From Segetibacter koreensis DSM 18137 (GTDB lineage Bacteria; Bacteroidota; Bacteroidia; Chitinophagales; Chitinophagaceae): DNA of 64,000 bases. The notes under the pieces were generated by a model. It made no database searches and was not told the DNA's origin. It saw only the letters and a program-made list of their open reading frames with translations. The DNA lies in NCBI RefSeq assembly GCF_000374045.1, contig NZ_KB893327.1, forward strand, positions 1-64,000. Direction: 5' to 3'. The position numbers and the translations under genes were made by a program. Within the stretch, counting starts at the first letter, position 1. Every line of letters begins with the position of its first letter. Below are positions 11,151-29,237 of the stretch, piece by piece.

Positions 11151-14100
11151 TTAAGCCAAAACGGCGTTTTGCTGATGCAATGGTTCTATATGATGTGGCC
11201 TGATAATCACCTTTGGCCTTCCGGTTATTTTTTCTTGTAACGATTGAAAAATGATAAAGAGAACCGGGATGATAAAGAGACCTAAGATTACACCTGTTAC
11301 CATTCCGCCGGCAGCACCAATGCTTATAGAATGGTTACCCTGCGCTGATGGACCAGTTGCTATACTCATCGGGAATAGTCCGAAAACGAAAGCCAGCGAA
11401 GTCATGATGATAGGACGTAACCTCAACTTTGCTGCTTCTATCGCCGATTGTACCAGTCCAAGACCTGCTTTGCGTCTTTGAACAGCAAATTCAATAATCA
11501 GGATGGCGTTTTTAGCGAGCAAGCCTATTAGCATAATTAAGGCTACCTGTACATAAATGTTGTTTTCGATACCTGTTAAACCTAAGACCACAAACACACC
11601 GAAAATACCTGTAGGGATAGAAAAGATAACTGCAAGTGGCAAAAGGTAACTTTCGTATTGGGCAGCCAACAGGAAGTAAACAAACACCAGGCAAAGTATA
11701 AACACAATAACTGCCTGTCCACCTGATGAGATTTCCTCCCGTGTCTGACCCGAAAACTCGTATGCATAACCGGATGGTAACTGTTCTTTCGCTGTCTCCT
11801 GAATTGCCTTAATAGCATCGCCCGAACTGTAGCCAGGTTTTGGGATGGCATTTACCTGAATAGAGTTGAAAAGGTTATAACGTGACGCTGTTTCTGAGCC
11901 ATAGACACGGGTTAATTTTACCAGCGTATTTATCGGCACCATGTCACCGGATTTGTTCTTTACAAACACACGGTCAATAGATGCAGGGTCCGTTCTATCA
12001 GCAACATCGGCCTGAACAACCACACGGTAATATTTACCAAAACGGTTAAAGTCCGATGCTTGTGCGCTACCAAAATAAGCTTGCATGGTCGCTAAAACAT
12101 CTTTTACATTTACGCCCAATTGGTTGGCTTTATCATCATTGACCTCTAACTGCAACTGAGGATAATCTGCTTTAAAAGTGGTAAAAGCAAAGGCGATTTC
12201 TTTTTTCTGCATCAGCTTGCCGATGAAGTTGTTGGCCACACCGCTGAACTTATCGAGCTTGCCACCGGTTTTATCCTGCAGTACAAGGTCTAGCGCCTCC
12301 ACGTTACTAAAACCAGGTACAGTTGGAAAGCTGAAGACGAAAAATGTCCCGCCATTTACTGCTGCTAACTGTCCACGTATGATGTTTTGTATGGCATTGA
12401 TGTCCTTTACTTCACCCCTGTCTTTATTTGGTTTTAACAGTACAAAAACTACCGCTGCTGAAGGACTGTTTGAAGACGTCAATAAGTTAAAACCTGATAT
12501 CGCTGTAACAAATCTTGCTGATGGCAAAGCCCTTAGTTTTTCTTCGGCCTGGTTAAGGATTTTTGTAGTTCCGTCAAGTGATGTTCCTGACGGTGTTGAA
12601 ACAGAGATAGCAACAAATCCCTGGTCTTCTGTTGGAATGAAACCTGACTTGGTAGTGTTTACAAGGTAAACGGTAATCAAAGTAACCAGCGCAAGTCCAC
12701 CCATGCTAATCCATTTGTGACGGATAAGAAATTTTACTCCGCCTACATAACGGTTGGTAACGGTATTAAAGCTGCTATTAAAACCATCGAAGAATTTTTG
12801 TTTGAAGCTTCTCTTTTTGATGATAGCACCATCTTCGCCAGCTACATGTTTATCTTTCAAAAACAAGGCAGCCAAAGCCGGACTTAGCGTTAAAGCGTTC
12901 ACCGCTGATATTACAATAGCTATTGCCATCGTAAAGGCAAACTGCCTGTAAAATATACCAGTTGAACCACTCATAAAACCGACAGGCAGAAACACTGCCG
13001 CCATCACCAAGGTGATAGAAATAATAGCACCTGTAATTTCATGCATTGCTTCGGTGGTAGCTGCTTTTGCAGGAAGATGCTTCGTTTCCATTTTGGCATG
13101 GACGGCCTCTACCACCACAATAGCGTCATCTACTACAATACCAATTGCCAATACCAATGCAAACATGGTAAGCAGGTTGATGGAAAAACCAAAAAGGCTC
13201 ATGAAAAAGAACGTTCCTAAAATCGCAACAGGAACTGCTATTGCCGGAATTAGTGTTGACCTAAAATCCTGTAAGAAGATAAACACTACAATAAATACCA
13301 GGGCAAAGGCCTCAAGCAATGTGTGCTGAACCTGGGAGATGGATTCATCAAGGGCAGTTTTGGTTCGATAAAAATTGTCGTACTTAATTCCTGCAGGAAA
13401 ATCTTTTGATGCTTTTTCCATCAGCTTATCAATAGCTACCTGAATCTCGTTTGCGTTTGAACCCGCTAATTGAATGACACCAATACCAATACCGTCTTTG
13501 CCATTTAAATGTGTTGCACTCGTATATGAATACGCTCCCAATTCAACACGGGCCACATCTTTTAAGTGTAAAACAGAACCATCTGCATTTGCACGGATAG
13601 CAATGTTTTCATACTCCTCCGGTTTCGTCAGCTTGCCTTTGTATTTAATCACGTATTCAAACACCTCACTGCTATGTTCGCCTAATTTGCCGGGAGCTGC
13701 TTCAAGGTTTTTGTCCTGTATTGCTGCCATCACTTCAGCCGGAGTAATTTTGTAAATCGCCATCTGACTTGTGTTAAGCCAAACACGCATGGAATAATCT
13801 TTCACTCCACCAAATATGGTTGCAGAGCCTACGCCGGGAATACGTTTTATCTCTGGAATAATATTAATCTGTGCATAGTTGGCAACAAACGTCTGGTCAT
13901 ATTTTTTGGAATCCTCTGTGTAAATACCAATCGCTTCTATGAAACTGTTTTGTTGTTTGGTAGTGGTTATACCTTGTTGCACCACTTCTGCCGGTAATTG
14001 GCTAGTAGCCTGTGTTACACGGTTTTGCACGTTTACTGCCGCCTGGTCAGGACTAGTGCCTTGCTTAAAGAAAACGGTGATAGCCAATGAACCATCGTTG

Positions 14101-14348
14101 CTGGCGGTAGAGCTGATGTAACTCATATCTTCCACACCGTTGATGCTTTCCTCAAGCGAAGGAGCAACGGAACGCAAAACGGTCTCAGCGTTTGCGCCCG
14201 GGTAAACAGCCCTGACTAAAACTGCAGGCGGAGCAATATCAGGAAACTGCTGCAGGGGTAAGCGGACTAATCCCAGCACGCCTAATATGACTAATAAAAT
14301 CGAAATGACTGTAGCCAATACAGGCCTTTCTATAAATCTTTTAAACAT
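11151..14348 (-). CDS. acrB: RND multidrug efflux pump, HAE1/AcrB family
   Basis: A 1065-residue inner-membrane proton antiporter. The N-terminus MFKRFIERPVLATVISILL is the first transmembrane helix. The porter domain follows, with VYPGANAETV, SSTASNDGS and VNVQNRV segments. The proton-relay motif GIVVDDAIVVVEAV (two adjacent aspartates in helix 4) is intact, and the second half repeats the topology (GIFGVFVVLGL, then IGLLAKNAILIIEF). The length matches the family. It works with the adaptor at 14794-15948 and the channel at 9449-10861. An unusual 445-base gap containing palindromic repeats separates it from the adaptor gene. Substrates cannot be told from sequence. Confidence 0.93.
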   Translation of the reverse strand: MFKRFIERPVLATVISILLVILGVLGLVRLPLQQFPDIAPPAVLVRAVYPGANAETVLRSVAPSLEESINGVEDMSYISSTASNDGSLAITVFFKQGTSPDQAAVNVQNRVTQATSQLPAEVVQQGITTTKQQNSFIEAIGIYTEDSKKYDQTFVANYAQINIIPEIKRIPGVGSATIFGGVKDYSMRVWLNTSQMAIYKITPAEVMAAIQDKNLEAAPGKLGEHSSEVFEYVIKYKGKLTKPEEYENIAIRANADGSVLHLKDVARVELGAYSYTSATHLNGKDGIGIGVIQLAGSNANEIQVAIDKLMEKASKDFPAGIKYDNFYRTKTALDESISQVQHTLLEAFALVFIVVFIFLQDFRSTLIPAIAVPVAILGTFFFMSLFGFSINLLTMFALVLAIGIVVDDAIVVVEAVHAKMETKHLPAKAATTEAMHEITGAIISITLVMAAVFLPVGFMSGSTGIFYRQFAFTMAIAIVISAVNALTLSPALAALFLKDKHVAGEDGAIIKKRSFKQKFFDGFNSSFNTVTNRYVGGVKFLIRHKWISMGGLALVTLITVYLVNTTKSGFIPTEDQGFVAISVSTPSGTSLDGTTKILNQAEEKLRALPSARFVTAISGFNLLTSSNSPSAAVVFVLLKPNKDRGEVKDINAIQNIIRGQLAAVNGGTFFVFSFPTVPGFSNVEALDLVLQDKTGGKLDKFSGVANNFIGKLMQKKEIAFAFTTFKADYPQLQLEVNDDKANQLGVNVKDVLATMQAYFGSAQASDFNRFGKYYRVVVQADVADRTDPASIDRVFVKNKSGDMVPINTLVKLTRVYGSETASRYNLFNSIQVNAIPKPGYSSGDAIKAIQETAKEQLPSGYAYEFSGQTREEISSGGQAVIVFILCLVFVYFLLAAQYESYLLPLAVIFSIPTGIFGVFVVLGLTGIENNIYVQVALIMLIGLLAKNAILIIEFAVQRRKAGLGLVQSAIEAAKLRLRPIIMTSLAFVFGLFPMSIATGPSAQGNHSISIGAAGGMVTGVILGLFIIPVLFIIFQSLQEKITGRPKVIIRPHHIEPLHQQNAVLA

Positions 14349-14495
14349 AGTAATGAATTGAAGTTGAAATTGTCTGAACCTGGCTTTATAGGATTGAAGG
14401 ATTTTTTGGAAATGGAGATTATTGAATATTTCTTTTCTTTCGTTCTAGTAAACCTGTTTTTTCGAAGTCAGCAGAAGTTTTCTAATTAAGCTCCG

Positions 14496-14517
14496 GTTGT
14501 GTCACTCACTTGTACTG
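14496..14517. repeat. Dispersed repeat copy (GTGTCACTCACTTGTAC core)
   Basis: Same sequence as 11058-11080 over its core. It lies in the gap between adaptor and pump genes and is oriented opposite to the copy at 14720-14743, with the large palindrome at 14601-14705 between the two. The whole block 14496-14743 is therefore nested and inverted. Confidence 0.65.
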
Positions 14518-14600
14518 TATCTTTTCATGGCTGCTTTTCTCGCCTTCTCTTTTGTCTGAACTGGGATTTATGGGATTATTGGGAAATGAGCTCCCCTACC

Positions 14601-14705
14601 CGTCATTGCGAGGAGGAGGAACGACAACGAAGCAATCTGCTCTAAAATAACAGCAGGTTCTGATACAATCATCAGATTGCTTCGTCGTACCTCCTCGCAA
14701 TGACG
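14601..14705. repeat. Palindromic MITE-like repeat
   Basis: Two arms of about 35 bases face each other. The left begins CGTCATTGCGAGGAGG at 14601 and the right ends CCTCCTCGCAATGACG at 14705; both include the AGCAATCTG/CAGATTGCT segment, with a short spacer (about 14641-14669). It can fold into one long hairpin. Elements starting CGTCATTGCGAGGAG are frequent in Bacteroidota intergenic DNA. It splits the efflux operon and could act as an mRNA processing or stability element. Confidence 0.7.
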
Positions 14706-14719
14706 ATACAAGTGCAACC

Positions 14720-14743
14720 GTACAAGTGAGTGACACAACGATG
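14720..14743. repeat. Dispersed repeat copy (GTACAAGTGAGTGACACAAC core)
   Basis: Inverse of the copy at 14496-14517; together they bracket the palindromic repeat at 14601-14705. This symmetrical arrangement suggests that one inserted into or was built around the other. Confidence 0.6.
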
Positions 14744-14793
14744 TTGAACAGTGTTGTTTAGCTCACTACCAAATCAAAGTTTTTGAGGTGTTT

Positions 14794-15948
14794 TTACGAT
14801 TTAGCCGGCTTTCCCGCCATCGTGACTTCTGCCGTATTTTTTGCTTTTTCCGGTTTTACAATAAGGCCTTCAGTCAGGTGGTCGAGGCCACTGAAGACAA
14901 TTCGGTCTCCTGGTTTTACGCCATCTTTTACGATGTAGTCGGTTCCACTTTTTCCAACGATATTGAGGGCCTGTTTGCTTACCTTATTGCTGTCGCCGAC
15001 AGCGTAAACAAATACTTTATCCTGCACCTCAATAGTAGCAGTTTGCGGTATCAATAAGGCATCGGTATGTTGCTGCTGCAACCTGATTTTACCGGTATTG
15101 CCAGAGCGTAAAAGGCTTTGAGCATTGGGGAACACAGCACGAAGGGTGATAGCTCCGGTGTTCTTGTCGAACCTACCGTCAACCATATCAATTCTTCCCT
15201 TTTGAGGGTAGAGGGTGTTGTCAGCCAAAAGGAGTGAAACCGGCGGTAGTTTCTTCAATTTATCGTTCAGCGTATTTCCCTGGTATTGAGATTTAAAACG
15301 AATAAAATCACTTTCGCCGAGAGAGAAATAGGCATAGACTTCATGGACGTCAGAAAGCTGGGTAAGCGGTTCTGGGTCAGTCGGTGAAACGAGGCTCCCA
15401 CGTTTTTTAGGAAGCCGTCCGATAAAACCACTAACTGGCGCTTTTACAAGCGTATAACCCAGATTAATTTTTGCGGAAGAAACAACTGCTTTTGCCTGTA
15501 CAGCATTGGCTACGGCAATTTTGCGTGCTGCCTGGGCAACCTTTAACTGGTAGTCAGAAACCACTTTGTTTTGTACCAAAGGAGTCAACTTATCAATTTC
15601 TAACTGCGCATTTGTAATCGCTGCTTCAGCAGCCTGAAGACTTGCAGATGCATTGTTTAATTGCGCATTATAAGTTTGCGCATTGATTTTAAAAAGGGGT
15701 TGTCCGGCGATTACATACTGTCCTTCATCCACCAAAACTTTTTCGAGAAATCCTTCTGCCTGCGGCCTAATTTCTACGTCAACTTTTCCTTGTAGTGATG
15801 CGGTATAATCTTGCTCGGTCACAGCAGATGCGGTGGCGACGGTAATAACTTCTGCTGAAGGAGCTTCAGCAACCGGAGTAGCAGGTTGTGGTTGTGAACA
15901 TCCGACGATAAGGATGATTGCACTTAATAGAATACTAATACTTTTCAT
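14794..15948 (-). CDS. acrA: RND efflux periplasmic adaptor (membrane fusion lipoprotein, AcrA family)
   Basis: A 384-residue adaptor. The signal peptide MKSISILLSAIILIVGC ends in a lipobox cysteine (Cys17). The lipoyl-like halves are KVDVEIRPQAEGFLEKVLVDEGQYV and INLGYTLVKAPVSGFIG, flanking an alpha-helical hairpin (residues 75-150). The beta-barrel domain follows, and the C-terminal part includes LIPQTATIEVQDKVFVYAV. It bridges pump and outer-membrane channel. A TTAAC-N3-GTTAA operator lies only 12 bases upstream of its start codon, which implicates the adjacent TetR protein in repression. Confidence 0.92.
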   Translation of the reverse strand: MKSISILLSAIILIVGCSQPQPATPVAEAPSAEVITVATASAVTEQDYTASLQGKVDVEIRPQAEGFLEKVLVDEGQYVIAGQPLFKINAQTYNAQLNNASASLQAAEAAITNAQLEIDKLTPLVQNKVVSDYQLKVAQAARKIAVANAVQAKAVVSSAKINLGYTLVKAPVSGFIGRLPKKRGSLVSPTDPEPLTQLSDVHEVYAYFSLGESDFIRFKSQYQGNTLNDKLKKLPPVSLLLADNTLYPQKGRIDMVDGRFDKNTGAITLRAVFPNAQSLLRSGNTGKIRLQQQHTDALLIPQTATIEVQDKVFVYAVGDSNKVSKQALNIVGKSGTDYIVKDGVKPGDRIVFSGLDHLTEGLIVKPEKAKNTAEVTMAGKPAKS

Positions 15949-15959
15949 AATTAAATCAT

Positions 15960-16072
15960 TTAACAGCGTTAAGCTAGTTGGTCAAAAAAAACGGTTTTTC
16001 AAACCGGCAAAAGCAACCGTACAAAAAACAGCGGTACAACATTAACAGCACTAAGTAATTTAACGGCGTTAA
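15960..16072. promoter_or_regulatory. Three TetR-type operators between the regulator and adaptor genes
   Basis: Palindromes TTAACAGCGTTAA (15960-15972) and TTAACGGCGTTAA (16060-16072), plus a weaker TTAACAGCACTAA (16042-16054), lie in the 145-base gap before the adaptor gene. The same TTAAC-N3-GTTAA pattern precedes the tetR-like gene (16720-16732). Recurrence at both promoters of a divergent-function unit is strong evidence for the repressor-binding site. Confidence 0.75.
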
Positions 16073-16093
16073 CCTTTCGAAAAAAAAAAAGGG

Positions 16094-16690
16094 TTATGCA
16101 GTAATAGCCCTTATAATACCATCAATAGCGTCTTTTAGAACTTGTTTATTCATCTCGTCTGACGTACCACGGTTAACCAGGTTGATAGAAACAAGACCAT
16201 GTACTACAGACCAAAATGTATAATATCTCCTGCATACTTCGTCTTCAGATAGCTCTTTTCCAGGCATTAGTTTTCTGATAGCGTCCGTAATTAATTTTCC
16301 TGGCGCCTCAGCTTCAGGTGTTTTTTGCATTGAACAACAGTTCATCTGAACGCCGAACATCAACTGGTACAATTCCTTTTTCTTAAAAGCGAAATTCCAA
16401 TAAGCCATCCACATCGCCTCCAGCTGTTGGGCCGGATGCTCGTGTTTGTTTTTCGCTTCTTCCATTTCCTTTGCTAAATAGAGATATCCTTTCTTATTAA
16501 GTTCTGCTAATATTGCTTCTTTGTTAGAAAAATATTCATAAATAATCGGCGCAGTATATTCAATCTCGTCGGCAATCTTCCGCATGCTCAACGCCTGCCA
16601 TCCTTCTTCTTTCACGATCTTATAAGCTGCCTCCAAAATTTTCATTTTGGTATCTTCTTTTAATCGTTGAATTCTTTCTTTACTTGCCAT
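16094..16690 (-). CDS. TetR-family repressor of the efflux operon
   Basis: A 198-residue regulator. The N-terminal helix-turn-helix is clear: ILEAAYKIVKEEGWQALSMR, then KIADEIEYTAPIIYEYFSNK (residues 17-58). The C-terminal ligand domain carries WMAYWNFAFKKKELYQLMFG and a WSVVHGLVSINL helix typical of TetR_C_13-like domains. It is the first gene of the efflux operon, read leftwards. Operators at its own promoter and at the adaptor promoter predict autorepression and release by a pump substrate. Three cysteine residues in MNCCSM and CRRYY are present, but no metal or redox role is evident. Confidence 0.9.
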   Translation of the reverse strand: MASKERIQRLKEDTKMKILEAAYKIVKEEGWQALSMRKIADEIEYTAPIIYEYFSNKEAILAELNKKGYLYLAKEMEEAKNKHEHPAQQLEAMWMAYWNFAFKKKELYQLMFGVQMNCCSMQKTPEAEAPGKLITDAIRKLMPGKELSEDEVCRRYYTFWSVVHGLVSINLVNRGTSDEMNKQVLKDAIDGIIRAITA

Positions 16691-17064: not shown

Positions 17065-17485
17065 TTGATAATATTGTTGACCTCGTATGTTATCATAGGT
17101 AGGCATCAGCATGTTGTCTTCACTGTTTTCTTCATCGTAGAGGTCCATACCTTTTTATAAAATAGTTTGTATGTTTTGTAGTTGTAGATGCGATCAGCCC
17201 AATGCTCTTTTGCATGCAGGAATCAAGCGGTAGTTACTTGCTTTTCGTCCACAGCTTAATATACCTGTGCACGATTTATAAGCTTGTTCGGGTTGCTGTT
17301 TTCGGTCAAGTATTTTGACTATGTAAAGGTTTACGTCATCATTAATGGATTCTGCTCATTCAATAAAAACGTTCAGGTGTCCATTCGGTAACAAAGCGAT
17401 GGGTAGAGGCAAGACGTTCCTTATCCGTAGTATAGGTGTATGGACTTTTGGTGCGTTTATGTAACGCAAATGGGCTCATAATGAA
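17065..17485 (-). pseudogene. IS21 transposase (IstA) C-terminal remnant
   Basis: Scattered frames on the minus strand recover an IstA C-terminus: HKRTKSPYTYTTDKERLAST, HRFVTEWTPERFY, then INDDVNLYIVKILDRKQQPEQ, AYKSCTGILSCGRKASNYRL and a tail NMLMPTYDNIRGQQYY. Several stops and frame changes are needed, and the DDE core is absent. With 16784-17045 it forms one decayed IS21 insertion between the efflux and sulfatase operons. Confidence 0.7.
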
Positions 17486-17839
17486 GAAGACTTGAACATT
17501 ACACTGCCTGATGAATGAGTTGTTAAATTGGATTTATTTAATGTCCCACCTTTAGCAACACTGAAGAAAACCATTGCCCCTGCCAATCCGTTTTCTTCCG
17601 CATGCAAAACTTTCCACTGCAAGCAGCTTCTAAAGTTGTTTCCCTGGCTTACCCTTTTTGGTTATTACCTAGAAGTAAAACGCCAATTATAAGTGTAGCA
17701 AAAAGCCAGTCGTTTCAAACAATGAGCTGTTTTCTCATTACTGTATACATTTTTACAACCGCTAGTTTATCTCGGCTACAGGTTGTTTTTAACCAAACGG
17801 ACATATATTAGTTACGAGAAAAAAAAGATTCTAAATATA
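17486..17839. other. Intergenic, no gene seen
   Basis: A 69-codon ORF at 17602 on the plus strand has no recognisable features and is treated as chance. No terminator was recognised. Confidence 0.35.
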
Positions 17840-17880
17840 AGTCTATAAATTTGGTGGACTAATATTTTAACTTACATTTG
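17840..17880 (+). promoter_or_regulatory. Strong Bacteroidota promoter of the SusCD-sulfatase operon, with shared operator-like segment
   Basis: The -33 box TTTG (17850-17853) is separated by exactly 19 bases from the -7 box TACATTTG (17873-17880), a perfect fit to the Bacteroidota consensus. The segment from 17840 matches 26408-26448 at 38 of 41 positions, including the spacer GTGGACTAATATTTTAA, far beyond what the promoter consensus needs. An imperfect dyad (AGTC...GACT, 17840-17860) overlaps the -33 box and may bind a regulator. Confidence 0.8.
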
Positions 17881-17950
17881 TAATGAAATCATTAACTAAT
17901 TCGATTGGATTGGCCATAGGAAACAATGTTAACGTTCTAACTTTAATATC

Positions 17951-18055
17951 ATGAACATTTTAACTACAAACGGTCTTTTAACGTCATTTAGTTACAACAC
18001 GAACGTACGTGTTTCACGCTCCGCTTGCTGCAACTCTATGGGTTGTTGTTGCTAA
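17951..18055 (+). CDS. Cysteine-rich leader peptide (candidate attenuator uORF) of the sulfatase operon
   Basis: A 34-residue ORF begins 70 bases after the -7 box and ends with five cysteines in the last nine residues (SACC, then SMGCCC before the stop). It is the first ORF of the transcript; the susC-type gene starts 435 bases later. A second leader with the same C-terminal Cys clustering occurs at 26513-26602 behind a nearly identical promoter. In mycobacteria, polycysteine uORFs are known to attenuate downstream genes according to cysteinyl-tRNA supply. A similar role here is inference; a real secreted or metal-binding peptide is the alternative. Confidence 0.65.
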   Translation: MNILTTNGLLTSFSYNTNVRVSRSACCNSMGCCC

Positions 18056-18325
18056 TCTTTTCCACTCAAATCCGTTTTGCCCCAACGGCATTTTCTATTT
18101 CTTAATTTATTTCTGATTACTTGCAGTAACTGTATAAACTTAAGTTTACCGGGAGGTAGCTAATGTACTGGTACGTTTAATTAAACAATTAACAGGATAG
18201 TTAGTGAAATACGTTCCTCTTAAAATTTATAAATGAAACAGCTATTTATAACCCCAACAGCTAATCGCCCCAGTTCAATTAATGTATGGTGTCAATTAAG
18301 ACTTTAAAAATCGCTAAAATAAAGG

Positions 18326-18406
18326 GGAGCTTTTTAGTTGCAGCTAAAAAGTATTCTCCAGCAATTCATACATAAAAGGTCAGAACTGTTTGCAGCAGTT
18401 CTGACC
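18326..18406 (+). promoter_or_regulatory. Two RNA hairpins in the leader before the SusC gene
   Basis: The first hairpin is 18326-18359: an 8-bp perfect stem CTTTTTAG/CTAAAAAG with loop TTGCAG, extended by GGAG/CTCC. The second is 18378-18406: an 11-bp perfect stem GGTCAGAACTG/CAGTTCTGACC with loop TTTGCAG. Both loops share TTGCAG. They lie between the cysteine leader ORF and the start codon at 18491. Neither is followed by a T-run, so they are not classical terminators. They could be attenuator, Rho-related or mRNA-stability elements. Confidence 0.6.
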
Positions 18407-18490
18407 AGGAAAAACAAGACCTGGCGTGGGAACCAGCATACAGTAAAACACTGTATAGGCATCTTATTTTTTAAACCTAAAACAAATATA

Positions 18491-21400
18491 ATGAAAAAGC
18501 ATTTACTCCTATGGGTATGGCTTATAGTACTATCTCCTGTTGTTATTTACGCTCAATCCGTTAAACCTACTATCAATTCAACTCTTTCAGGGAAAGTTAT
18601 AGATGATAAAACGAAGGCAGCCTTGCCTGGAGCAGTTGTTCATATCAAAGGCACTACACATGAAGTGGTAACCGATGAAAATGGTGAATTTGATTTCATT
18701 ACTGGGCAAAAATTACCTTATACACTTGCAATTAGCTATGTTGGTTATAAATCAGGCGAATTTATAGCACACAAAAATTACGTAGAAGTATCGCTACATG
18801 CAACAACTAACCAACTAGATGAAGTGGTAATTGTTGGTTATGGAACGCAAAGAAAAAGTGATATAACAGGTTCTGTAGGAACAGTTTCTAAAAATCTTTT
18901 AAATCAACCCGCAGCTTCTTTCGATAATTTATTACAAGGTGCAGTTCCCGGGGTGGCCGTAACACAAAGCTCTTCGCAACCCGGAAGCACGGCTACAATA
19001 AGGGTGAGAGGAGGAAACTCTATCAGTTTCGGTAATGACCCTTTATATGTTATAGACGGTTTTATCATTTATAATAACAATAGCTATGCAAATACTGGTG
19101 CTTCCAATGGGGTAGGAGTGAATGCATTATCAACTATTAGCCCCAGCGACATAGAGTCGATAGAAATTTTAAAAGATGCATCAGCAACTGCAATTTATGG
19201 TTCCCGCGGTGCAAATGGAGTGGTTATAATCACGACAAGAAGAGGCAAAAAAAGTGGTACTGAAATTAATTACAGCACTTATTTCGGAACGCAGAAAATC
19301 AAGAAGAAACTTGGACTGCTTAATGCCTCTCAATGGGCTTCTCTTGTAAATGATATCAATGTTAGTGATAACAAGCCTATCATCTTTTCAGACTCTGCCA
19401 TAGCAGCTCTCGGTGTTGGCTCAGATTGGCAAAGTGCCGCTGTTAAAGATGCGTCCATTCAAAACCATGAACTATCCTTCTCCGGTGGCGATGACAAGTC
19501 AAGATTTTTAATTTCAGGCAATTATTATAACCAGGGTGGAAATGTGGTAAATACTGGTTTTAAGAGATATTCCGCAAGAATAAACTATGAAAGAAATATC
19601 TCCGAAAGATTTAAAATTGCTACTAATGTTTTTGGCAGTCAATCAGTAGAAGACAAGCTTTTTGGTAATGCTTATAACAGTATCAATTTTCAAAGCACTT
19701 CATTTTCAAACCTGTTGCAGTTATCTCCTGTTCCTAAAATTTACAATGAAGATGGAACGTATAATACGTCAAGCCCTTATACTGCAACCCCTACAAATCT
19801 TTTGCAGGACATTACAAAAACTACAAATCGTAGTTATTTAACGAGAGTATTAGCAAATGCATCGCTCGAATACAAAATAATAAAAGATATAACACTTAAA
19901 GTAACGAGTGGTGCTGACTTGCTTAATACAAAGCAAAATTACTATTCACCTTCTTTTGCCGGTTCTCCTGCTGGTAGTTCTACAGGTTATTCTACACAAG
20001 GTTATGCTTCTGTCGGTACTGCAAACGTTACCACCTGGATTAACGAAAACACGCTAACCTATGACCATGTTTTTCAAAGCAAACATTTTGTAAATGTTTT
20101 GGCAGGGTACACGACGCAGCATCAAAAAGATGAGACTGCTGTTGCTTCGGCTCAGAAATTTCCTAATGACCTTACGACATTCAATAACCTGAATTTCGCA
20201 AGTACGCCTGTGCTTTCTACATCAGACGCCCGTGAGTCTTCTATTAATTCGTTTTTAGCAAGGGTAAATTATTCTTACCTGCATAGATATAACGTTACTT
20301 TATCTGCCCGTGCTGATGGCTCATCAAGACTAGGTGCTAACAATAAATGGGGATATTTTCCTTCTATCGGTTTATCGTGGAATGCAAGCCAGGAGGATTT
20401 CTTTAGTAATATAAAAGGAACGTTTAGTAATTTGAAAGTGAGGTTATCTGCAGGAAGAACAGGGAACTCTGAGGTTCCGCCTTATAGTTCATGGGCAGCG
20501 CTTACACCCACTAATTATTACTTCAGCAGCACGTTGGTTACTGGCATTGCACCCGTTCAGATCGCCAATCCTAATCTAAAATGGGAAACAACAACACAAT
20601 ATAATGCGGGCGCAGATGTAGGATTTTTTAATAATAGGGTAAACGTGTCTTTTGATGCTTACTATAAAAAAACAAGTGACCTTTTATTGAATGTGCCCTT
20701 CCCTTTATATTCAGGATATGCAAGTTCGCTTCAAAACGTTGGAAGTGTCGAAAACAAAGGCATTGAATTCAGCATTAGTTCAGACAATATAAGAAGTCGT
20801 GACCTTACCTGGAAATCGACCTTGGTTTTTGCCGCTAACCGGAACAAAATTCTGAGCCTTGGAAAAGGTACAGAATATTATTTTCCAATTGCGCCGACCG
20901 GGTATGTGTCGCCAGTAATCGTAAAGGTTGGACTACCTGTGGGAACTTTTTGGGGGTATAATACGGATGGCTTGTTAACTGCCGAAGATGTTTCAAAAGG
21001 TACACCTGTTTTAGCAGGAGTGCCACAGCAGCAGGGAGATAGGAAATATATTGATACAAACGGGGACGGAGTGGTGAATACAGCCGATAAGCACAACCTT
21101 GGAAGTGCACAGCCTAAGTTCACCTTTGGCTTCTCCAACTCAGTAAACTATAAAAACTTCGATTTATCCTTTTTCTTCCAGGGTTCTTATGGTAATAAGA
21201 TATTCAACTTTTTACAACAAAAACTTGAATTACCCACTTTATCCTTAAATGCGTCTTCAACCTTACTCGACAGGTGGAGCCTAAGCAATCCTAACGGCAA
21301 GGTTCCAAGAGCTACCAACGCGCCTGTGTCACAGGTTACAGACCGATATATTGAAGATGGTTCTTACCTAAAGTTGAAGAACATTTCTTTAGGCTATAGC

Positions 21401-21604
21401 TTTTCAAAAGGTCTTATTGAGAAAATTCATGCTAAACAACTCCGCCTATATGTATCAGCACAAAACTTGGTAACCCTAACCAAATACACAGGTTACGACC
21501 CAGAGGTCAACTTCTTCGATACCGATAATACTAAACAAGGAATTGACTATGGCGCTTATCCAAGTACAAAAACATTTCTCGCTGGTCTGAACATTACGTT
21601 TTAA
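18491..21604 (+). CDS. SusC/RagA-family TonB-dependent outer-membrane transporter
   Basis: With the ATG at 18491 the protein has 1037 residues and a clean signal peptide (MKKHLLLWVWLIVLSPVVIYAQ). An open frame extends 51 codons further upstream, but that part is the hairpin leader. Next come a carboxypeptidase-like regulatory domain (LSGKVIDDKTKAALPGAVVHI), the TonB-box region (LDEVVIVGYGTQRKSDITGS), the plug (GAVPGVAVTQ, then IRVRGGNSI and IEILKDASATAIYGSRGANG) and a 22-strand barrel ending in AGLNITF. It pairs with the SusD lipoprotein to import a large or bulky substrate. Because a sulfatase follows and no glycosidase is present, the substrate is probably a sulfate ester (inference). Confidence 0.92.
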   Translation: MKKHLLLWVWLIVLSPVVIYAQSVKPTINSTLSGKVIDDKTKAALPGAVVHIKGTTHEVVTDENGEFDFITGQKLPYTLAISYVGYKSGEFIAHKNYVEVSLHATTNQLDEVVIVGYGTQRKSDITGSVGTVSKNLLNQPAASFDNLLQGAVPGVAVTQSSSQPGSTATIRVRGGNSISFGNDPLYVIDGFIIYNNNSYANTGASNGVGVNALSTISPSDIESIEILKDASATAIYGSRGANGVVIITTRRGKKSGTEINYSTYFGTQKIKKKLGLLNASQWASLVNDINVSDNKPIIFSDSAIAALGVGSDWQSAAVKDASIQNHELSFSGGDDKSRFLISGNYYNQGGNVVNTGFKRYSARINYERNISERFKIATNVFGSQSVEDKLFGNAYNSINFQSTSFSNLLQLSPVPKIYNEDGTYNTSSPYTATPTNLLQDITKTTNRSYLTRVLANASLEYKIIKDITLKVTSGADLLNTKQNYYSPSFAGSPAGSSTGYSTQGYASVGTANVTTWINENTLTYDHVFQSKHFVNVLAGYTTQHQKDETAVASAQKFPNDLTTFNNLNFASTPVLSTSDARESSINSFLARVNYSYLHRYNVTLSARADGSSRLGANNKWGYFPSIGLSWNASQEDFFSNIKGTFSNLKVRLSAGRTGNSEVPPYSSWAALTPTNYYFSSTLVTGIAPVQIANPNLKWETTTQYNAGADVGFFNNRVNVSFDAYYKKTSDLLLNVPFPLYSGYASSLQNVGSVENKGIEFSISSDNIRSRDLTWKSTLVFAANRNKILSLGKGTEYYFPIAPTGYVSPVIVKVGLPVGTFWGYNTDGLLTAEDVSKGTPVLAGVPQQQGDRKYIDTNGDGVVNTADKHNLGSAQPKFTFGFSNSVNYKNFDLSFFFQGSYGNKIFNFLQQKLELPTLSLNASSTLLDRWSLSNPNGKVPRATNAPVSQVTDRYIEDGSYLKLKNISLGYSFSKGLIEKIHAKQLRLYVSAQNLVTLTKYTGYDPEVNFFDTDNTKQGIDYGAYPSTKTFLAGLNITF

Positions 21605-21606
21605 TC

Positions 21607-21702
21607 GTGAAAAGTCAAAAGTCGAAATTAAAAAGTAAAAAACAGCTATTATTCACGGTTCACCATTCACCATTTACTACTCACACAACTCACTTTAAAA
21701 CA
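21607..21702. repeat. Low-complexity repeat between SusC and SusD genes
   Basis: Short direct repeats (AAAAGTCAAAAGTC-like and TTCACCATTCACC-like) fill the gap. This kind of filler is common between Bacteroidota genes. The open reading frame of the SusD gene runs back through it, which makes its start look earlier than it is. Confidence 0.6.
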
Positions 21703-23163
21703 ATGAAAAAGTTATCAATATTATTTGCATTAGGAGCGGCGGCATCTTTGTCGTGCAATAAACTGGTTGAACAACCGAATTCAATCATTACCAATTCTCA
21801 ATTTTATAAAACACAGTCTGATGCAATTGCAGCAGTCAACGCGGTATATAGCACGCTAAATTCAGACCCTGCCGGAGACTTTCCTATGTATGGCAGAAAT
21901 CTAAATTTGCTTACCGGTAACGGCAGTGATGACCAAATATTTAGTCAATCAAACACCAACCCTGACGTAAGGGCGCTTGGAACCGCAACTTATGTACCTG
22001 CAAACGACCGTATAAAGAAAAACTGGCAACAGCATTATTTTGGGATTAGCCGCGCAAACGTAGCTATAGACAATATCCCCAATATTGCTTTCGATACCAC
22101 TTCGCGCTCGCGTCTTGTTAGAGAAGCAAAGTTTATAAGAGCATTATTGTATTTTAACGTAGTTCGTTTTTGGGGTGATGCTCCACTTATTTTACACGAC
22201 CCGGCAAGCATTGATGTTGATGCATTGAAAGTGAAACGATCACTTAAGGATAGCGTATACGCACAAATTATTGCTGACCTTACTGATGCTACAAACCTTC
22301 CTAAAACTTATGGCGCTTGGGATAAAGGAAGAGCAACAAGCGGGGCAGCCCATGCTTTATTAGCTAAGGTATATGTTAACCGCAAAGAGTGGGATAAGGC
22401 TTTGGCAGAATTAAATACAGTAATTAACGGAGGCTATGGATATGACCTTTTTCCAAACTATAAAGATGCCTTTCAAAAAGCGACAAAAAATGGAATTGAA
22501 CATATTTTTTCCGTGCAATTTGAAACTGCCCTTGGTGCAAAGAACAGTACACAAAATTTGAGCACTGGAAATTTCGGTTCTTTTAATCCTTCTGTATATC
22601 CTGGTGACCTACCTGCAGACAGCACCCTTTACCTGATGTACTCAACTGATGATACAAGGAGAGATGTTACATTTTTTACCAGCCAATACAACGCTGCTAC
22701 AGGTCAAACCGTAGATTTTGGTGCACCTCGTCTAGCAAAATTTATCGATTATTCTTTATCACTGCTTACCAATCAATCTCAAAGCGGGATAAACTTTCCC
22801 GTCATTCGTTATGCAGATATTTTGTTGCTACAGGCAGAAGTCTTAAATGAATTAAATGGTGGCCCAACAGCCGAAGCGTATACAGCAATAAACCGGGTAC
22901 GAGCAAGAGCCCATGTTCCTGACCTTACCACAGGACTTAGTCAAGCTGATTTTCGCGACTCTGTTTTTGTGGAAAGAAGGAAAGAATTCATCCAGGAAGG
23001 AATGCGTTGGTTCGACCTGTCAAGGCGTGGCGGTACTTATCTCTATGATGCACTTAAAAAGTTTCCTGCAAAAACAGGCGCTGCAGTCAAGGATACTTTG
23101 TTTCCTATTCCTCAGGCTGAAATTGATTTGAATCCTTTGCTTAGCCAAAATCCGGGATGGTAG
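21703..23163 (+). CDS. SusD/RagB-family surface lipoprotein
   Basis: With the ATG at 21703 the product has 486 residues and a lipoprotein signal MKKLSILFALGAAASLSC. Upstream in-frame codons are repeat filler. The tetratricopeptide-like SusD fold is supported by FYKTQSDAIAAVNAVYSTL near the N-terminus, VREAKFIRALLYFNVVRFWG in the middle, and the C-terminal signature RADILLLQAEVLNEL (here RYADILLL), VERRKEFIQEGMRWFDLSRR and LFPIPQAEIDLNPLLSQNPGW. It forms the lid of the SusC transporter and captures the ligand at the cell surface. Confidence 0.93.
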   Translation: MKKLSILFALGAAASLSCNKLVEQPNSIITNSQFYKTQSDAIAAVNAVYSTLNSDPAGDFPMYGRNLNLLTGNGSDDQIFSQSNTNPDVRALGTATYVPANDRIKKNWQQHYFGISRANVAIDNIPNIAFDTTSRSRLVREAKFIRALLYFNVVRFWGDAPLILHDPASIDVDALKVKRSLKDSVYAQIIADLTDATNLPKTYGAWDKGRATSGAAHALLAKVYVNRKEWDKALAELNTVINGGYGYDLFPNYKDAFQKATKNGIEHIFSVQFETALGAKNSTQNLSTGNFGSFNPSVYPGDLPADSTLYLMYSTDDTRRDVTFFTSQYNAATGQTVDFGAPRLAKFIDYSLSLLTNQSQSGINFPVIRYADILLLQAEVLNELNGGPTAEAYTAINRVRARAHVPDLTTGLSQADFRDSVFVERRKEFIQEGMRWFDLSRRGGTYLYDALKKFPAKTGAAVKDTLFPIPQAEIDLNPLLSQNPGW

Positions 23164-23327: not shown

Positions 23328-25208
23328 GTGAAAACAAAACAAATACTAACAACAGCACTTCTGATTGCAGCAATGCAAGCGAAGGCACAAACCAACGGAC
23401 AGGAGTTCAAAGGAACCGTTGGAAAAACATTTGCGGAATCAAAAGAATGGTGGCCGGAACCGGTTAAGGCGCCGGCAGGTGCGCCAAACGTTGTGTGGAT
23501 AATGATTGATGATGTTGGCTTTGGCGCCAGCAGTACATTCGGTGGCATTATTCCTACGCCAACTTTCGACAGTCTTGCAAACAATGGACTGCGATACACT
23601 AACTTCCATACTGCTGCCATTTGTGCCCCTACGCGGGCAGCATTGCTTACTGGTCGCAACCAGCATTATGTACACATGGGCGGTTTTGCGCACTACTCAA
23701 CTTCTGCCGGCTTTCCAGGTTATGACGGGTATATACCAGAGAAAGATGGTACAGTTGCCGAAATATTAAAAAGCCAAGGTTACTCAACATTTGCTGTTGG
23801 TAAATACGGAGTGACTCCCGATGCTGAAGCTACCGATGCCGGGCCCTTTGACCACTGGCCTCTTGGTAAAGGCTTCGAACATTTCTTTGGATTCTTAGCT
23901 TCCGAAACAGACCAATATCGTCCTGCTTTGGTTGAAGATAATGCCTTTGTTACTCCTGACGGTCGTCACCTGAGCGAGCAGATAACTGATAAAGCGATTA
24001 GCTACATTACTAAACAAAAAAAGGCAAATCCTGATAAACCATTTTTCCTTTATTATACTCCCGGAGCTACACATGCTCCCCACCAGGTTCCTGACAAATG
24101 GAGAGATATTTATAAAGGAAAGTTTGATGAAGGCTGGGATGTTTTTAGGCAAAAAGTTTTTGACAATCAAAAGAAGTTAGGCATCATACCTTCTTATGCG
24201 AAATTGCCCGAGCGCAATCCTTTGGTCAAAGCCTGGGATTCTTTACCTGCCGCCGAGCAAAAATTGTATGCACGTTTTATGGAAGTCTATGCTGCTTACC
24301 TGACTTATACAGATTACGAAGTAAGCCGGGTTGTAAACACGCTCAAAGAAATCAACCAGCTCGATAACACACTGCTATTTGTAATAATTGGCGACAATGG
24401 CGCAAGCAAAGAAGGTTCAGACAATGGGGTGGTTGAAAAAGCTTGGGGACCGCGATACGACAAAGGGGTAACACAGGAGCAGTACATAAAAAAGAATGAA
24501 GAAGCTATTGACAAAATTGGCACTCCTGAAACAGAACCAAACTATCCTCTAGGCTGGGCGCAGGCATGCAATACGCCTTTTAAAGACTGGAAGCAGGATG
24601 CGAATTCAGAAGGCGGCACTCATAATCCATTAATTGTTTTTTATCCTAAAAAAATTACTGATAAAGGTGCCATTCGTACACAATACGGATATGTGAGTGA
24701 CATTCTTCCAACTACGTTAGAGATAACAGGCATCAAAGCACCCGCAGAAATAAGGAACATTAAACAAGATACATTGCAAGGGGTTTCGCTTGCATATTCC
24801 TTCGATAATGCAAAGGCTGCGTCACATCGGATACGCCAGTATTATTACATTTTTGGTGCACGCGCTCTTTACAAAGACGGTTGGAAAGCTGGCGCAGCAC
24901 ACCATCCTAACGTTATTGATTTGGCTTCTTTTGGCAATAAGCCATTACCTGAGAGAAATTACGATAAGGACGTATGGACGCTATATAACCTGAACGAAGA
25001 TTTCAATGAACGTATCGATTTATCAAAAAAATATCCTGAAAAGTTAGCCGAGCTAAAAGCCGAGTTTGCCAAAGATGCCGAGCGGTATCATATCTATCCC
25101 TTTATAGATTGGCAGGATGTGTTCGAGAAGAAATTTATCAACTCGAAGAAAGCGCCTAACTACTCAACTCCGCCGCCACCTCCAGGTAAGAAGTTGGCCG
25201 CGAAATGA
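23328..25208 (+). CDS. Cysteine-type arylsulfatase, exported
   Basis: A 626-residue type I sulfatase that hydrolyses sulfate esters. The start is a GTG, chosen because it gives the signal peptide MKTKQILTTALLIAAMQAKA. The signature CAPTRAALLTGR places the formylglycine cysteine at Cys99, with Pro101 and Arg103 as required. Metal ligands Asp61-Asp62 (IMIDDVGFG) and the later IIGDNGASKEG are present, and TPGATHAPHQVP supplies the active-site histidine. A proline-rich tail (STPPPPPGKK) ends the protein. The cysteine must be converted to formylglycine, which the enzyme at 28158-29237 can do. It sits directly behind the SusC/SusD genes. Confidence 0.93.
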   Translation: MKTKQILTTALLIAAMQAKAQTNGQEFKGTVGKTFAESKEWWPEPVKAPAGAPNVVWIMIDDVGFGASSTFGGIIPTPTFDSLANNGLRYTNFHTAAICAPTRAALLTGRNQHYVHMGGFAHYSTSAGFPGYDGYIPEKDGTVAEILKSQGYSTFAVGKYGVTPDAEATDAGPFDHWPLGKGFEHFFGFLASETDQYRPALVEDNAFVTPDGRHLSEQITDKAISYITKQKKANPDKPFFLYYTPGATHAPHQVPDKWRDIYKGKFDEGWDVFRQKVFDNQKKLGIIPSYAKLPERNPLVKAWDSLPAAEQKLYARFMEVYAAYLTYTDYEVSRVVNTLKEINQLDNTLLFVIIGDNGASKEGSDNGVVEKAWGPRYDKGVTQEQYIKKNEEAIDKIGTPETEPNYPLGWAQACNTPFKDWKQDANSEGGTHNPLIVFYPKKITDKGAIRTQYGYVSDILPTTLEITGIKAPAEIRNIKQDTLQGVSLAYSFDNAKAASHRIRQYYYIFGARALYKDGWKAGAAHHPNVIDLASFGNKPLPERNYDKDVWTLYNLNEDFNERIDLSKKYPEKLAELKAEFAKDAERYHIYPFIDWQDVFEKKFINSKKAPNYSTPPPPPGKKLAAK

Positions 25209-26407: not shown

Positions 26408-26448
26408 AGTCTATAAATTTGGTGGACTAATATTTTAAAATATATTTG
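26408..26448 (+). promoter_or_regulatory. Strong promoter of the hydroxylase-FGE operon, twin of the sulfatase promoter
   Basis: TTTG (26418-26421), a 19-base spacer, then TATATTTG (26441-26448). It matches 17840-17880 at 38 of 41 positions, including bases outside both promoter boxes. The shared extra sequence predicts a common regulator for the two operons. Confidence 0.8.
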
Positions 26449-26512: not shown

Positions 26513-26602
26513 ATGAAGGCTGCAATTATCAACAATACCAGAAGCGAAAATATTTATAACAATCGATTTGTTATGAACTGTTGTTGTAAAGGTTGCTGTT
26601 AA
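26513..26602 (+). CDS. Second cysteine-rich leader peptide (candidate attenuator uORF)
   Basis: A 29-residue ORF, 64 bases after the -7 box, ending MNCCCKGCC before the stop: five cysteines in the last seven residues. Apart from the terminal Cys cluster it shares little with the leader at 17951-18055, which is what is expected when only the cysteine codons matter. The downstream genes include the formylglycine-generating enzyme needed by the sulfatase. A regulatory role is inference. No ribosome-binding signal is expected in this phylum. Confidence 0.65.
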   Translation: MKAAIINNTRSENIYNNRFVMNCCCKGCC

Positions 26603-27091: not shown

Positions 27092-28075
27092 ATGATTAAG
27101 TTTATCGAAAGTATTTTTGTCAATTTAAATGGCTGGGGTTTTGTTGCCATTACTTTTATCTTAGGCATTTTTGAGTTCTCGTTTGGACTTTACGAGAAGA
27201 AGTGGAATAGAAATGAAATGTTTACTGACATTGCTTGTTATGCTTCTTCAAAACTTTTAGTTCCTCCCGTAGTTGGGTATTTCGGGCTAAAGATGCTGCC
27301 TGTTATTTTACCGGCCTACAAAGATGCTTTATTGTGGATTCCATTTGCATGGGGCGCTTTTATCATTGCTATCTATGACGACCTTACCCAATATTGGTAT
27401 CATCGCCTTCACCATCAACTTCCTTGGTTGTGGCGCTTTCATCGTACGCATCACTCAGCTAACTACATGGGTATGGCGATGGCAAGTAGGCAGAATATTA
27501 TTTACACCATTTTCTTTTCTCAAACATACCTTACTACCATATTGGTTTTTGTAGGGCTTGGTTATCCTGCGTTGTTTGTAAAGGGTATTAAATCTTTGAT
27601 TACTTTATCGGCACATTCTAGCATTCCCTGGGATAAATCTTTTTATAAGTATAAATTTCTTCATCCTATCGCCTGGGTTTTAGAAAGAACTATCTCTACA
27701 CCCGCCACCCATCATGCACACCACGCTGATACAACTGATGATGGCATTGGTTATTATAAAGGGAATTTTGGCAACATGTTTTTTATTTGGGATGTTATTT
27801 TTGGCACTGCGTTAATTACCCGTCAATATCCAAAATCTTACGGTATATCTCACTACGAAGGCGACCAGTGGTATGCCCAGTTATTGTGGCCAATTCTTAA
27901 ATCAAAAGTTCCCGGAAGCGAACTTGCAGCAGGTGGTCCCATAGTTAGGGAAGATGTGTACCCCGTTCCTGCTTTTGAGACAGAACAATTAAATGGAGAT
28001 TCTGTTCAAGCAGACGAAGAAGATTTTGTTTTCGAGGTCGTTCCGTTAGCGGTAAATGAGGAAATAAAAAAATAA
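27092..28075 (+). CDS. Fatty acid hydroxylase / sterol desaturase family membrane di-iron enzyme
   Basis: A 327-residue integral membrane protein. The eight-histidine signature of the family is visible: HRLHH (residues about 107-111), HRTHH (about 118-122) and HHAHH (about 211-215), which together bind the di-iron centre. Hydrophobic helices lie near residues 12-32, 50-70, 80-98 and 145-165. The 60-residue C-terminal tail is acidic and unlike the core. The family hydroxylates or desaturates lipids and sterols. Its position between two tiny membrane proteins and the FGE gene is unusual; the substrate is unknown. Sulfur-containing sphingolipid analogues are known in this phylum, but a link is speculation. 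Confidence 0.88.
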   Translation: MIKFIESIFVNLNGWGFVAITFILGIFEFSFGLYEKKWNRNEMFTDIACYASSKLLVPPVVGYFGLKMLPVILPAYKDALLWIPFAWGAFIIAIYDDLTQYWYHRLHHQLPWLWRFHRTHHSANYMGMAMASRQNIIYTIFFSQTYLTTILVFVGLGYPALFVKGIKSLITLSAHSSIPWDKSFYKYKFLHPIAWVLERTISTPATHHAHHADTTDDGIGYYKGNFGNMFFIWDVIFGTALITRQYPKSYGISHYEGDQWYAQLLWPILKSKVPGSELAAGGPIVREDVYPVPAFETEQLNGDSVQADEEDFVFEVVPLAVNEEIKK

Positions 28076-28157: not shown

Positions 28158-29237
28158 ATGATTAGATTGACTATTTATTTGATTTTCATTTCTTTTTTAG
28201 CTGGGTGTAATCAAAAAGGTGACAATACTTTGCTTGCATCTTCTAAAAAAGATTGTATTTCCTGCAGGGCTACTTCACGCTTAGCAGCATTTGCATCTGT
28301 TGCTAATAGGGAAAACAAATCAGCACAAACCAAAGATGAGATGGTTTGGATTGCAGGAGGAACATTTCAAATGGGTGCCGATGATTTCCCTGATGCCAAA
28401 CCTATACATGCTGTTACTGTTGACGGTTTTTATATGGACGAACACGAAGTAACCAATGCACAATTTGAAAAATTTGTAATGGCTACAGGTTATCTTACGG
28501 TTTCAGAGCGTCCTTTAAATCCTGCAGATTATCCCGGTGTTCCTGCCGAAAAACTTGCTCCCGGTTCTGCGGTCTTTACACCTCCTGATCACAAAGTTTC
28601 TTTAGATGACCCTTTGCAATGGTGGCAATATATTTCCGGCGCTGATTGGAAACATCCTCAGGGACCTGGAAGTACAATAAAAGGACATGAGAACGAGCCG
28701 GTAACACAAGTCAGTTATGTAGATGCAGCCGCTTACGCAAAATGGGCAGGCAAAAGATTGCCAACAGAAGCAGAGTGGGAGTTTGCCGCAAGGGCAGGAA
28801 AAAACAATTCAAAATATTACTGGGGTAATGAATTAAAGCCCAAAGGAAAGTGGGTAGCAAACATTTTCCAGGGAAGTTTCCCGGAGGCTAATACTATTGA
28901 AGATGGGTACAAAACAGTAGCTCCTGTCAAATCATTCGCCCCAAATGGCTTTGGATTATACGACATGGATGGCAACGTATGGGAATGGTGCGAAGATTAT
29001 TACAGACCGGATTACTACAAAAACAGTGTTAGCAAAAATCCTAAAGGTCCCTCTGACAGCTTCGATCCAGACGAACCCGGAACAGTAAAACGTGTGCAAC
29101 GAGGTGGTTCATTCCTTTGCAGTGACCAATACTGCATACGATATAGGGCGGGTAGTAGGGGCAAAGGCGAAATCAGCAGTGCAAGTAATAATCTTGGTTT
29201 CAGGTGTGTAAAAGTAAGTGCTATTAAAAACTTATAA
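28158..29237 (+). CDS. Formylglycine-generating enzyme (sulfatase-activating, SUMF1 family), lipoprotein
   Basis: A 359-residue protein with a lipoprotein signal MIRLTIYLIFISFLAGC (Cys17). The FGE-sulfatase domain begins at MVWIAGGTFQMGADDFPDA and contains VTNAQFEKFV, KRLPTEAEWEFAARAG and GNVWEWCEDYY. The redox/copper cysteines are both present: Cys321 and Cys326 in GGSFLCSDQYCIRYRAGSRG, matching the active-site pair of true FGEs rather than catalytically dead paralogues. It converts the sulfatase cysteine to formylglycine using oxygen. Because both this protein and the sulfatase have export signals, maturation may occur in the periplasm. A 22-codon ORF (28078-28146) in the gap is of doubtful reality. 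Confidence 0.92.
   Translation: MIRLTIYLIFISFLAGCNQKGDNTLLASSKKDCISCRATSRLAAFASVANRENKSAQTKDEMVWIAGGTFQMGADDFPDAKPIHAVTVDGFYMDEHEVTNAQFEKFVMATGYLTVSERPLNPADYPGVPAEKLAPGSAVFTPPDHKVSLDDPLQWWQYISGADWKHPQGPGSTIKGHENEPVTQVSYVDAAAYAKWAGKRLPTEAEWEFAARAGKNNSKYYWGNELKPKGKWVANIFQGSFPEANTIEDGYKTVAPVKSFAPNGFGLYDMDGNVWEWCEDYYRPDYYKNSVSKNPKGPSDSFDPDEPGTVKRVQRGGSFLCSDQYCIRYRAGSRGKGEISSASNNLGFRCVKVSAIKNL

Follow-up and report, generated by a model that had tools for sequence, protein, structure and literature searches.

A conserved poly-cysteine leader ORF, probably a cysteine-responsive attenuator, precedes a SusCD operon in Segetibacter koreensis and its relatives

A short open reading frame ending in a cluster of cysteine codons stands before a SusCD operon of Segetibacter koreensis DSM 18137, and comparison of this locus with its relatives indicates that the frame is very probably a cysteine-responsive leader-peptide attenuator. 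The locus lies in a stretch of 64,000 nucleotides, which we analysed as a whole and refer to as the window. Translation of positions 17951-18055 (+) gives MNILTTNGLLTSFSYNTNVRVSRSACCNSMGCCC followed by a TAA stop, that is, 34 codons with five Cys within the last nine residues (Cys codons at 18026-18031 and 18044-18052, stop at 18053-18055), and the stop lies 435 nt before the susC ATG at 18491. The frame, its Cys content, and this distance agree with a preliminary description of the DNA. Bacteroidota promoters follow the consensus TTTG/TAnnTTTG, and a promoter of the form TTTG-N19-TACATTTG can be read directly at 17850-17880 (+), with TTTG at 17850-17853, a spacer of 19 nt, and TACATTTG at 17873-17880. 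The same description had placed the leader “directly downstream” of this promoter; the wording was slightly generous, as the ATG lies 70 nt past the −7 element (8 nt in locus L116). At that distance the leader of the window is not leaderless, unlike the mycobacterial cases. No Rfam family matched positions 17401-18900 up to an E value of 1. Upstream of the leader, the minus strand at 11151-16690 carries ordinary genes for a TetR regulator, an HlyD-type adaptor, and an RND efflux pump. Across the genome, the bare pattern TGYTGYTGYTRA occurs at 54 sites, compared to 14 for the reversed control, and among the 30 of these 54 that we inspected the window site was the sole ATG ORF outside long frames with a gene behind it.

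The leader ORF is real and conserved. We scored a leader as an ATG-initiated ORF of 6 to 90 residues, of which the last six had to include three or more Cys, and applied this to 80 named loci from Segetibacter, Chitinophaga, Mucilaginibacter, Pedobacter, Niastella, Puia, Pinibacter, and other genera. Fifty-seven of these, mostly from Chitinophagaceae and Sphingobacteriaceae, had at least 50% SusC identity and 500 nt of upstream sequence and were treated as orthologs; 18 fell below 50% identity and 5 were too short. A leader was found in 53 of the 57 orthologs and in none of the 18 paralogues, with the reservation that the orthologs are related, so that these occurrences are not independent events. 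When any other residue was put in place of Cys, at most 6 of the 57 loci scored, and the reverse strand gave 1 of 57. Markov-shuffled 800-nt leaders produced a mean of 0.38 of 57 over 50 rounds, with a maximum of 2. The preliminary description had named loss of the ORF or of its Cys codons among relatives as the outcome that would speak against it, and the orthologs display the opposite, a Cys run retained at the stop.

The four orthologs scored as lacking a leader were L082, L117, L118, and L130. In L082, the nearest named relative, the poly-Cys frame is present, with no ATG upstream of it. None of L117, L118, and L130 has a poly-Cys leader; L117 has kept SusC and the promoter box described below. 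In L117 the box lies within 700 nt before susC (match at 8001) and the gene starts near the promoter, an arrangement that amounts to a natural experiment. A second set of 30 loci was drawn from 147 genomes of the family, which partly overlap those of the 80-locus set. Here all 10 of the best matches (52-100% identity, the window included) had poly-Cys upstream frames, as did a match at 47% identity (L031); L029 has CCC away from the end of its frame, and L030 has no such frame. The loose filter used on these 30 loci also let through five paralogue frames that are unlike the leaders.

The constraint falls on cysteine at the stop codon and not on a peptide. We assembled 55 leaders, consisting of the window, the 53 scored orthologs, and L082 (included by its stop only). 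The last Cys abuts the stop in 48 of the 55, is one residue away in 5, and two away in 2; TGT is used 209 times and TGC 87 times. In 24 close, overlapping pairs aligned without gaps from the stop (26 were tried, and two were too distant), the residue had changed at 13 of 136 comparisons of Cys codons, compared to 142 of 510 for other codons. Little else is kept across genera: the rest of the peptide varies, and lengths differ widely. The peptide body is not conserved; a search for relatives with the 34-residue peptide alone returned no more than weak matches (best foreign E value, 0.05). A constrained cysteine at the stop within an unconstrained peptide is what codon-starvation sensing predicts.

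Poly-Cys leaders were also found without reference to SusC. Across 395 genomes of the class we searched for five Cys codons followed by a stop and read 144 listed sites in 139 loci, one repeated cluster (G221:C70) being left out. Long frames contain 118 of these 144 listed sites; of the rest, which are intergenic, 15 have no ATG and 11 are ATG ORFs. The 11, as found among the sites listed, span seven families. Six of them precede established cysteine or sulfur genes, namely, cysS (cysteinyl-tRNA synthetase) twice, cysH (PAPS/APS reductase) twice, metX, and a gene for OAH sulfhydrylase. The leaders at the two cysS loci are very short, MIVFNTYCCCCCC (L257, 1477-1518) and MFFLSHTCCCCCCC (L259, minus strand), each followed by a stop, and lie 60 nt before the synthetase gene. 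Of the other five of these 11, four precede a PhyH gene (L299), a PhyH operon whose first gene encodes a small CarboxypepD-like protein (L253), a TonB receptor gene, and a gene for a RimK-like ATP-grasp protein, and behind the fifth we found no frame; the link of these five to sulfur is presumptive. That unrelated poly-Cys leaders stand before cysS, cysH, metX, and the OAH sulfhydrylase gene ties the Cys run to cysteine and sulfur supply. Together with the conservation in 53 of 57 orthologs, this favors the earlier proposal that stalling at the Cys run under sulfur starvation would let the operon be expressed.

Two rival readings of the frame can be weighed at this point. The 118 of 144 listed sites inside long frames attest that poly-Cys frames do arise by chance, but a chance origin for the leader, set against 53 orthologs observed and 0.38 expected, is so improbable that we give it practically no weight. 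The frame might instead encode a functional Cys-rich small protein, a metal-binding or modified peptide with no role as a sensor. Conservation of the frame is the sole point in favor of such a protein; across genera, however, the Cys run is nearly all that is kept and lengths differ widely, no NCBIfam model was matched by the leader of the window or by any of 10 leader peptides, and a cysteine sink placed before cysS and cysH would make little sense, all of which makes this explanation very improbable.

The window itself holds a second poly-Cys leader, which was missed by the preliminary description, correct as it was about the first. This ORF, MKAAIINNTRSENIYNNRFVMNCCCKGCC, at 26513-26602 (+), ends in NCCCKGCC before its stop, is unrelated to the first leader, and follows a second copy of the promoter box at 26412-26432 (+); it precedes small ORFs and the FA_hydroxylase and FGE genes. 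Elsewhere, leaders occur before PhyH-dioxygenase operons, a TonB receptor gene, and a SusC-like gene (L196, recognized by eye). For PhyH, a leader was present in 6 of 24 loci, compared to 2 of 24 on the reverse-strand control (30 loci were taken, and 6 were dropped since the gene motif was not found). Tiny frames before FA_hydroxylase genes, such as MCCP and MHCLYC, each followed by a stop, were considered as leaders and rejected, as those inspected (20 loci shown) overlap a small conserved ORF and are read in a different frame from it; such frames occurred in 16 of 46 FA_hydroxylase loci, the window's own leader included, and in 1 of 46 on the reverse-strand control. A plasmid search gave one match, which was irrelevant.

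Five of the 11 intergenic leaders among the sites listed in the class scan stand behind a SAM riboswitch (RF00162), before cysH (L261 and L343), the RimK-like gene (L291), metX (L308), and the OAH sulfhydrylase gene (L341). All five aptamers score above the gathering threshold, that of L308 barely so (45.6 against 44.4). Between the end of the aptamer and the first ATG of the leader lie 2-19 nt, so that, were these leaders part of the wider regulon considered below, the leader itself would be the expression platform. Among near relatives, a Cys ORF was found behind the SAM riboswitch in 1 of 13 analysable loci (30 were taken, and 17 were dropped since the motif missed the aptamer core), and the tandem is thus not the rule there.

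We infer from sequence that the leader is translated, that ribosomes stall on it, and in which direction and through what output step this would act. Transcription from the promoter would yield an mRNA in which the first frame to be translated closes with a Cys run beside the stop. With ample cysteinyl-tRNA, the ribosome would finish the leader and leave, and susC would stay unexpressed from most transcripts. Under cysteine shortage, the ribosome would stall on the last codons and remain at the end of the leader, and in this state susCD and the enzyme genes that follow would be expressed, to import and open organic sulfur compounds.

For the output step, we tentatively favor Rho, a reading that we hold at somewhat below even confidence, in which the stalled ribosome would cover a C-rich patch as in the tna operon. 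The genome encodes Rho (TIGR00767, 629.6 bits), and just past the leader stop lies a C-rich, G-poor stretch at 18056-18095 (+), a candidate Rho-loading patch. Across leaders, C minus G peaks at +0.17 within 0..30 nt past the stop, the top window of the profile. It is positive in 54 of the 55 SusC leaders at 0..+40, compared to 44 of 55 at −100..−60 and 35 of 55 at +60..+100, with clade means of 0.13-0.18, 0.00-0.09, and −0.02-0.06, respectively. In 11 other leaders it is positive in 11 of 11 at 0..+40, with means of 0.14, 0.04, and 0.03 for the three windows, and in nine class-level leaders (one shared with these 11 others) it is positive in 7. Among the five leaders behind SAM riboswitches, the bias is slight or absent in four (−0.07 to 0.05) and 0.12 in the fifth. 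The C-rich patch and the fixed place of the Cys run fit a stalled ribosome that masks a Rho-loading site. Against the Rho reading, the patch is a composition bias, and the flanking regions also have more C than G in 44 and 35 of the 55 leaders. The leader-to-gene spacing before metX, PhyH, and cysS genes, at 42-60 nt, would also leave little room for termination.

The same cysteine sensor could instead have a translational output, the stalled ribosome freeing the start region from pairing or altering mRNA stability or coupling, which we regard as a possibility with roughly a one-in-three claim on belief. Gene starts 42-60 nt past the leader would suit such an output, and mycobacterial cys genes are described as translation-attenuated (PMC13236596). 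In 12 Chitinophaga leaders, RNAalifold predicted that the Cys codons pair with the 20 nt before susC; two of the nine pairs have both sides changed (T-A to C-G) in some sequences. However, when sequences were folded singly, such pairing was no stronger than after the downstream sequence had been shuffled (over 55 leaders, 1.96 against 2.44; Chitinophaga, 1.02 against 0.98; a Mucilaginibacter subset, 2.23 against 2.67; Pedobacter, 0.21 against 1.17), and gaps of 189-441 nt separate the leader from the start of the susC match. A classical trp-type attenuator, with antiterminator and intrinsic terminator hairpins alternating on the plus strand, we consider unlikely. The window does have a weak terminator-like hairpin past the leader stop (18072-18088, +; 5 pairs with a U-rich tail), and hairpins resembling a plus-strand terminator lie within the last 230 nt of 17 of 55 leaders, but these hairpins are scattered in place and sequence, 7 of 54 control regions have one as well, and the Cys run sits at the stop rather than in the middle of the peptide. 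No conserved plus-strand intrinsic terminator was found between leader and gene in the 55 leaders.

Two further elements at the locus may add to control by the leader. One is an imperfect palindrome, AGTCTATAAATTTGGTGGACTAATA, at 17840-17864 (+), which overlaps the −33 element and is a putative operator for a sulfur regulator. This box is related to AGTCTA-N9-TAGACT and, in our estimation, resembles CymR sites; three Rrf2 genes are present in the genome, and none is linked to the box. Because real and shuffled leaders could not be told apart by a palindrome score built on a guessed consensus, we used a half-site pattern, picked by eye after the leaders had been viewed, which occurs upstream of 35 of 55 leaders and of 1 of 55 in the reversed control. 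Within the genome, the 21-mer at up to three mismatches recovers the leader promoter, the copy at 26412, and a site on another contig (C15:546), with two sites for the reversed control. The C15 box (L051, 546-1743) lies ∼40 nt before an aminotransferase class V gene, which by its sequence we take to encode a cysteine desulfurase, and has no poly-Cys leader; neither a leader nor a gene follows a shorter match at C5:165057. By itself the box pattern has little specificity, occurring at 19 places in the 147 genomes compared to 10 for the reversed control, and a poly-Cys ORF follows closely at 8 of the 19. Outside the family the box is rare, and none of four such matches has a poly-Cys leader close behind.

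The second element is a minus-strand intrinsic terminator at 18378-18406 (−), an 11-pair stem followed by TTTTATG, which could end a DonS-like antisense RNA. A minus-strand terminator precedes susC in 45 of 55 leaders, compared to 6 of 54 control regions; it is found in 0 of 17 family paralogues and in 12 of 19 paralogues below 50% identity. The putative antisense RNA that faces susC, at 18362-18482 (−), is strongly structured (fold z of −5.4, the minus strand alone being folded), and a possible −7 element for it, TATATTTG, lies at 18490-18483 on the minus strand, a partial promoter match. Both the palindromic operator and the antisense RNA at the start of susC are predicted from sequence, and they may add two further controls.

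The genes behind the leader encode a SusC/RagA TonB-linked receptor (18491-21604, +; TIGR04056), a SusD-family protein (21607-23163, +; PF07980 and PF14322) whose true start is probably inside the frame, and a sulfatase (23328-25208, +; PF00884). Behind the second leader are genes for an FA_hydroxylase-family protein (27092-28075, +; PF04116) and an FGE-sulfatase domain protein of the sulfatase-maturation type (28158-29237, +; PF03781). Among the 57 ortholog loci, some of which are cut short, downstream homologues were found for SusD in 54, FA_hydroxylase in 45, a same-strand sulfatase in 35, and FGE in 14. In L104 and L111, two Sphingobacteriaceae loci read gene by gene, that run holds only SusCD and FA_hydroxylase. 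The term SusCD-sulfatase operon, introduced by the preliminary description, thus suits the window and is too narrow for the family, where 22 of 57 loci, again with some cut short, have no downstream sulfatase. Presumably, the operon serves sulfur scavenging.

Poly-Cys leaders have reportedly been tested in mycobacteria, by Canestrari in 2020. Leader ORFs of this kind had been described earlier, upstream of cys operons in Mycobacterium and Propionibacterium acnes and of cbs in Bifidobacterium, in a 2005 paper whose authors suggested Rho-dependent termination as in tna (PMC1262725). Such leaders were already known from Actinobacteria, and the Bacteroidota leader would be a variant of them. The two have in common a short ORF whose Cys run lies close to the stop, the sulfur genes behind it, and the lack of a conserved terminator; they differ in that ours are from Bacteroidota, count SusCD and TonB receptors of the outer membrane among their targets, are not leaderless in the window, and come with a promoter box and a predicted antisense terminator. 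The uORFC-8-2 motif of Rhodobacterales also places tandem Cys codons before cysS, a target shared by L257 and L259; these codons number two, as a rule at positions 14-15, and the motif comes with an intrinsic terminator (PMC8632094). In contrast, the Cys runs here are longer and lie at the stop, and a conserved terminator was not found. The DonS family consists of cis-antisense RNAs to susC homologs, 78-128 nt long (PMC7366714). Our minus-strand terminator and structured region before susC agree with that account in place and direction; unlike DonS, they are predicted from sequence, are paired with a cysteine leader, and occur in Chitinophagaceae and Sphingobacteriaceae.

In the tryptophanase operon of Escherichia coli, the tnaC leader arrests ribosomes on free Trp through conserved peptide residues. 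Our proposal resembles tnaC in that the ribosome, arrested at the leader end, would mask a Rho site, and it differs in invoking codon starvation and in lacking a conserved peptide body. In the titles, abstracts, and passages that we covered, no publication dealt with a cysteine leader, either in Bacteroidota or attached to SusCD. General mention is made of leader-peptide attenuation before amino-acid operons in Flavobacterium psychrophilum (PMC9723704) and of short ORFs in long 5′ untranslated regions in Bacteroides thetaiotaomicron (PMC7366714), and either could include such cases.

These observations could be parts of a Bacteroidia-wide cysteine-attenuation regulon that takes in sulfate reduction (cysH), the entry of sulfur into methionine (metX and OAH sulfhydrylase), cysS, dioxygenases, and scavenging by SusCD/TonB systems of the outer membrane, is partly gated by SAM, and controls its SusCD branch through Rho, an operator, and an antisense RNA, a reading to which we give not quite an even chance. 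In the tandems of SAM riboswitch and leader, the mRNA would then compute “low SAM and low cysteine,” and a single RNA would act as a gate for sulfur with two inputs. Cysteine-specific leader attenuation would be extended to Bacteroidota, which would offer a test case there for attenuation without an intrinsic terminator. SusCD systems have been studied mainly as importers of carbon in the form of glycans. A cysteine sensor on SusCD suggests that some of these systems are sulfur importers, and that they might be sorted by sequence.
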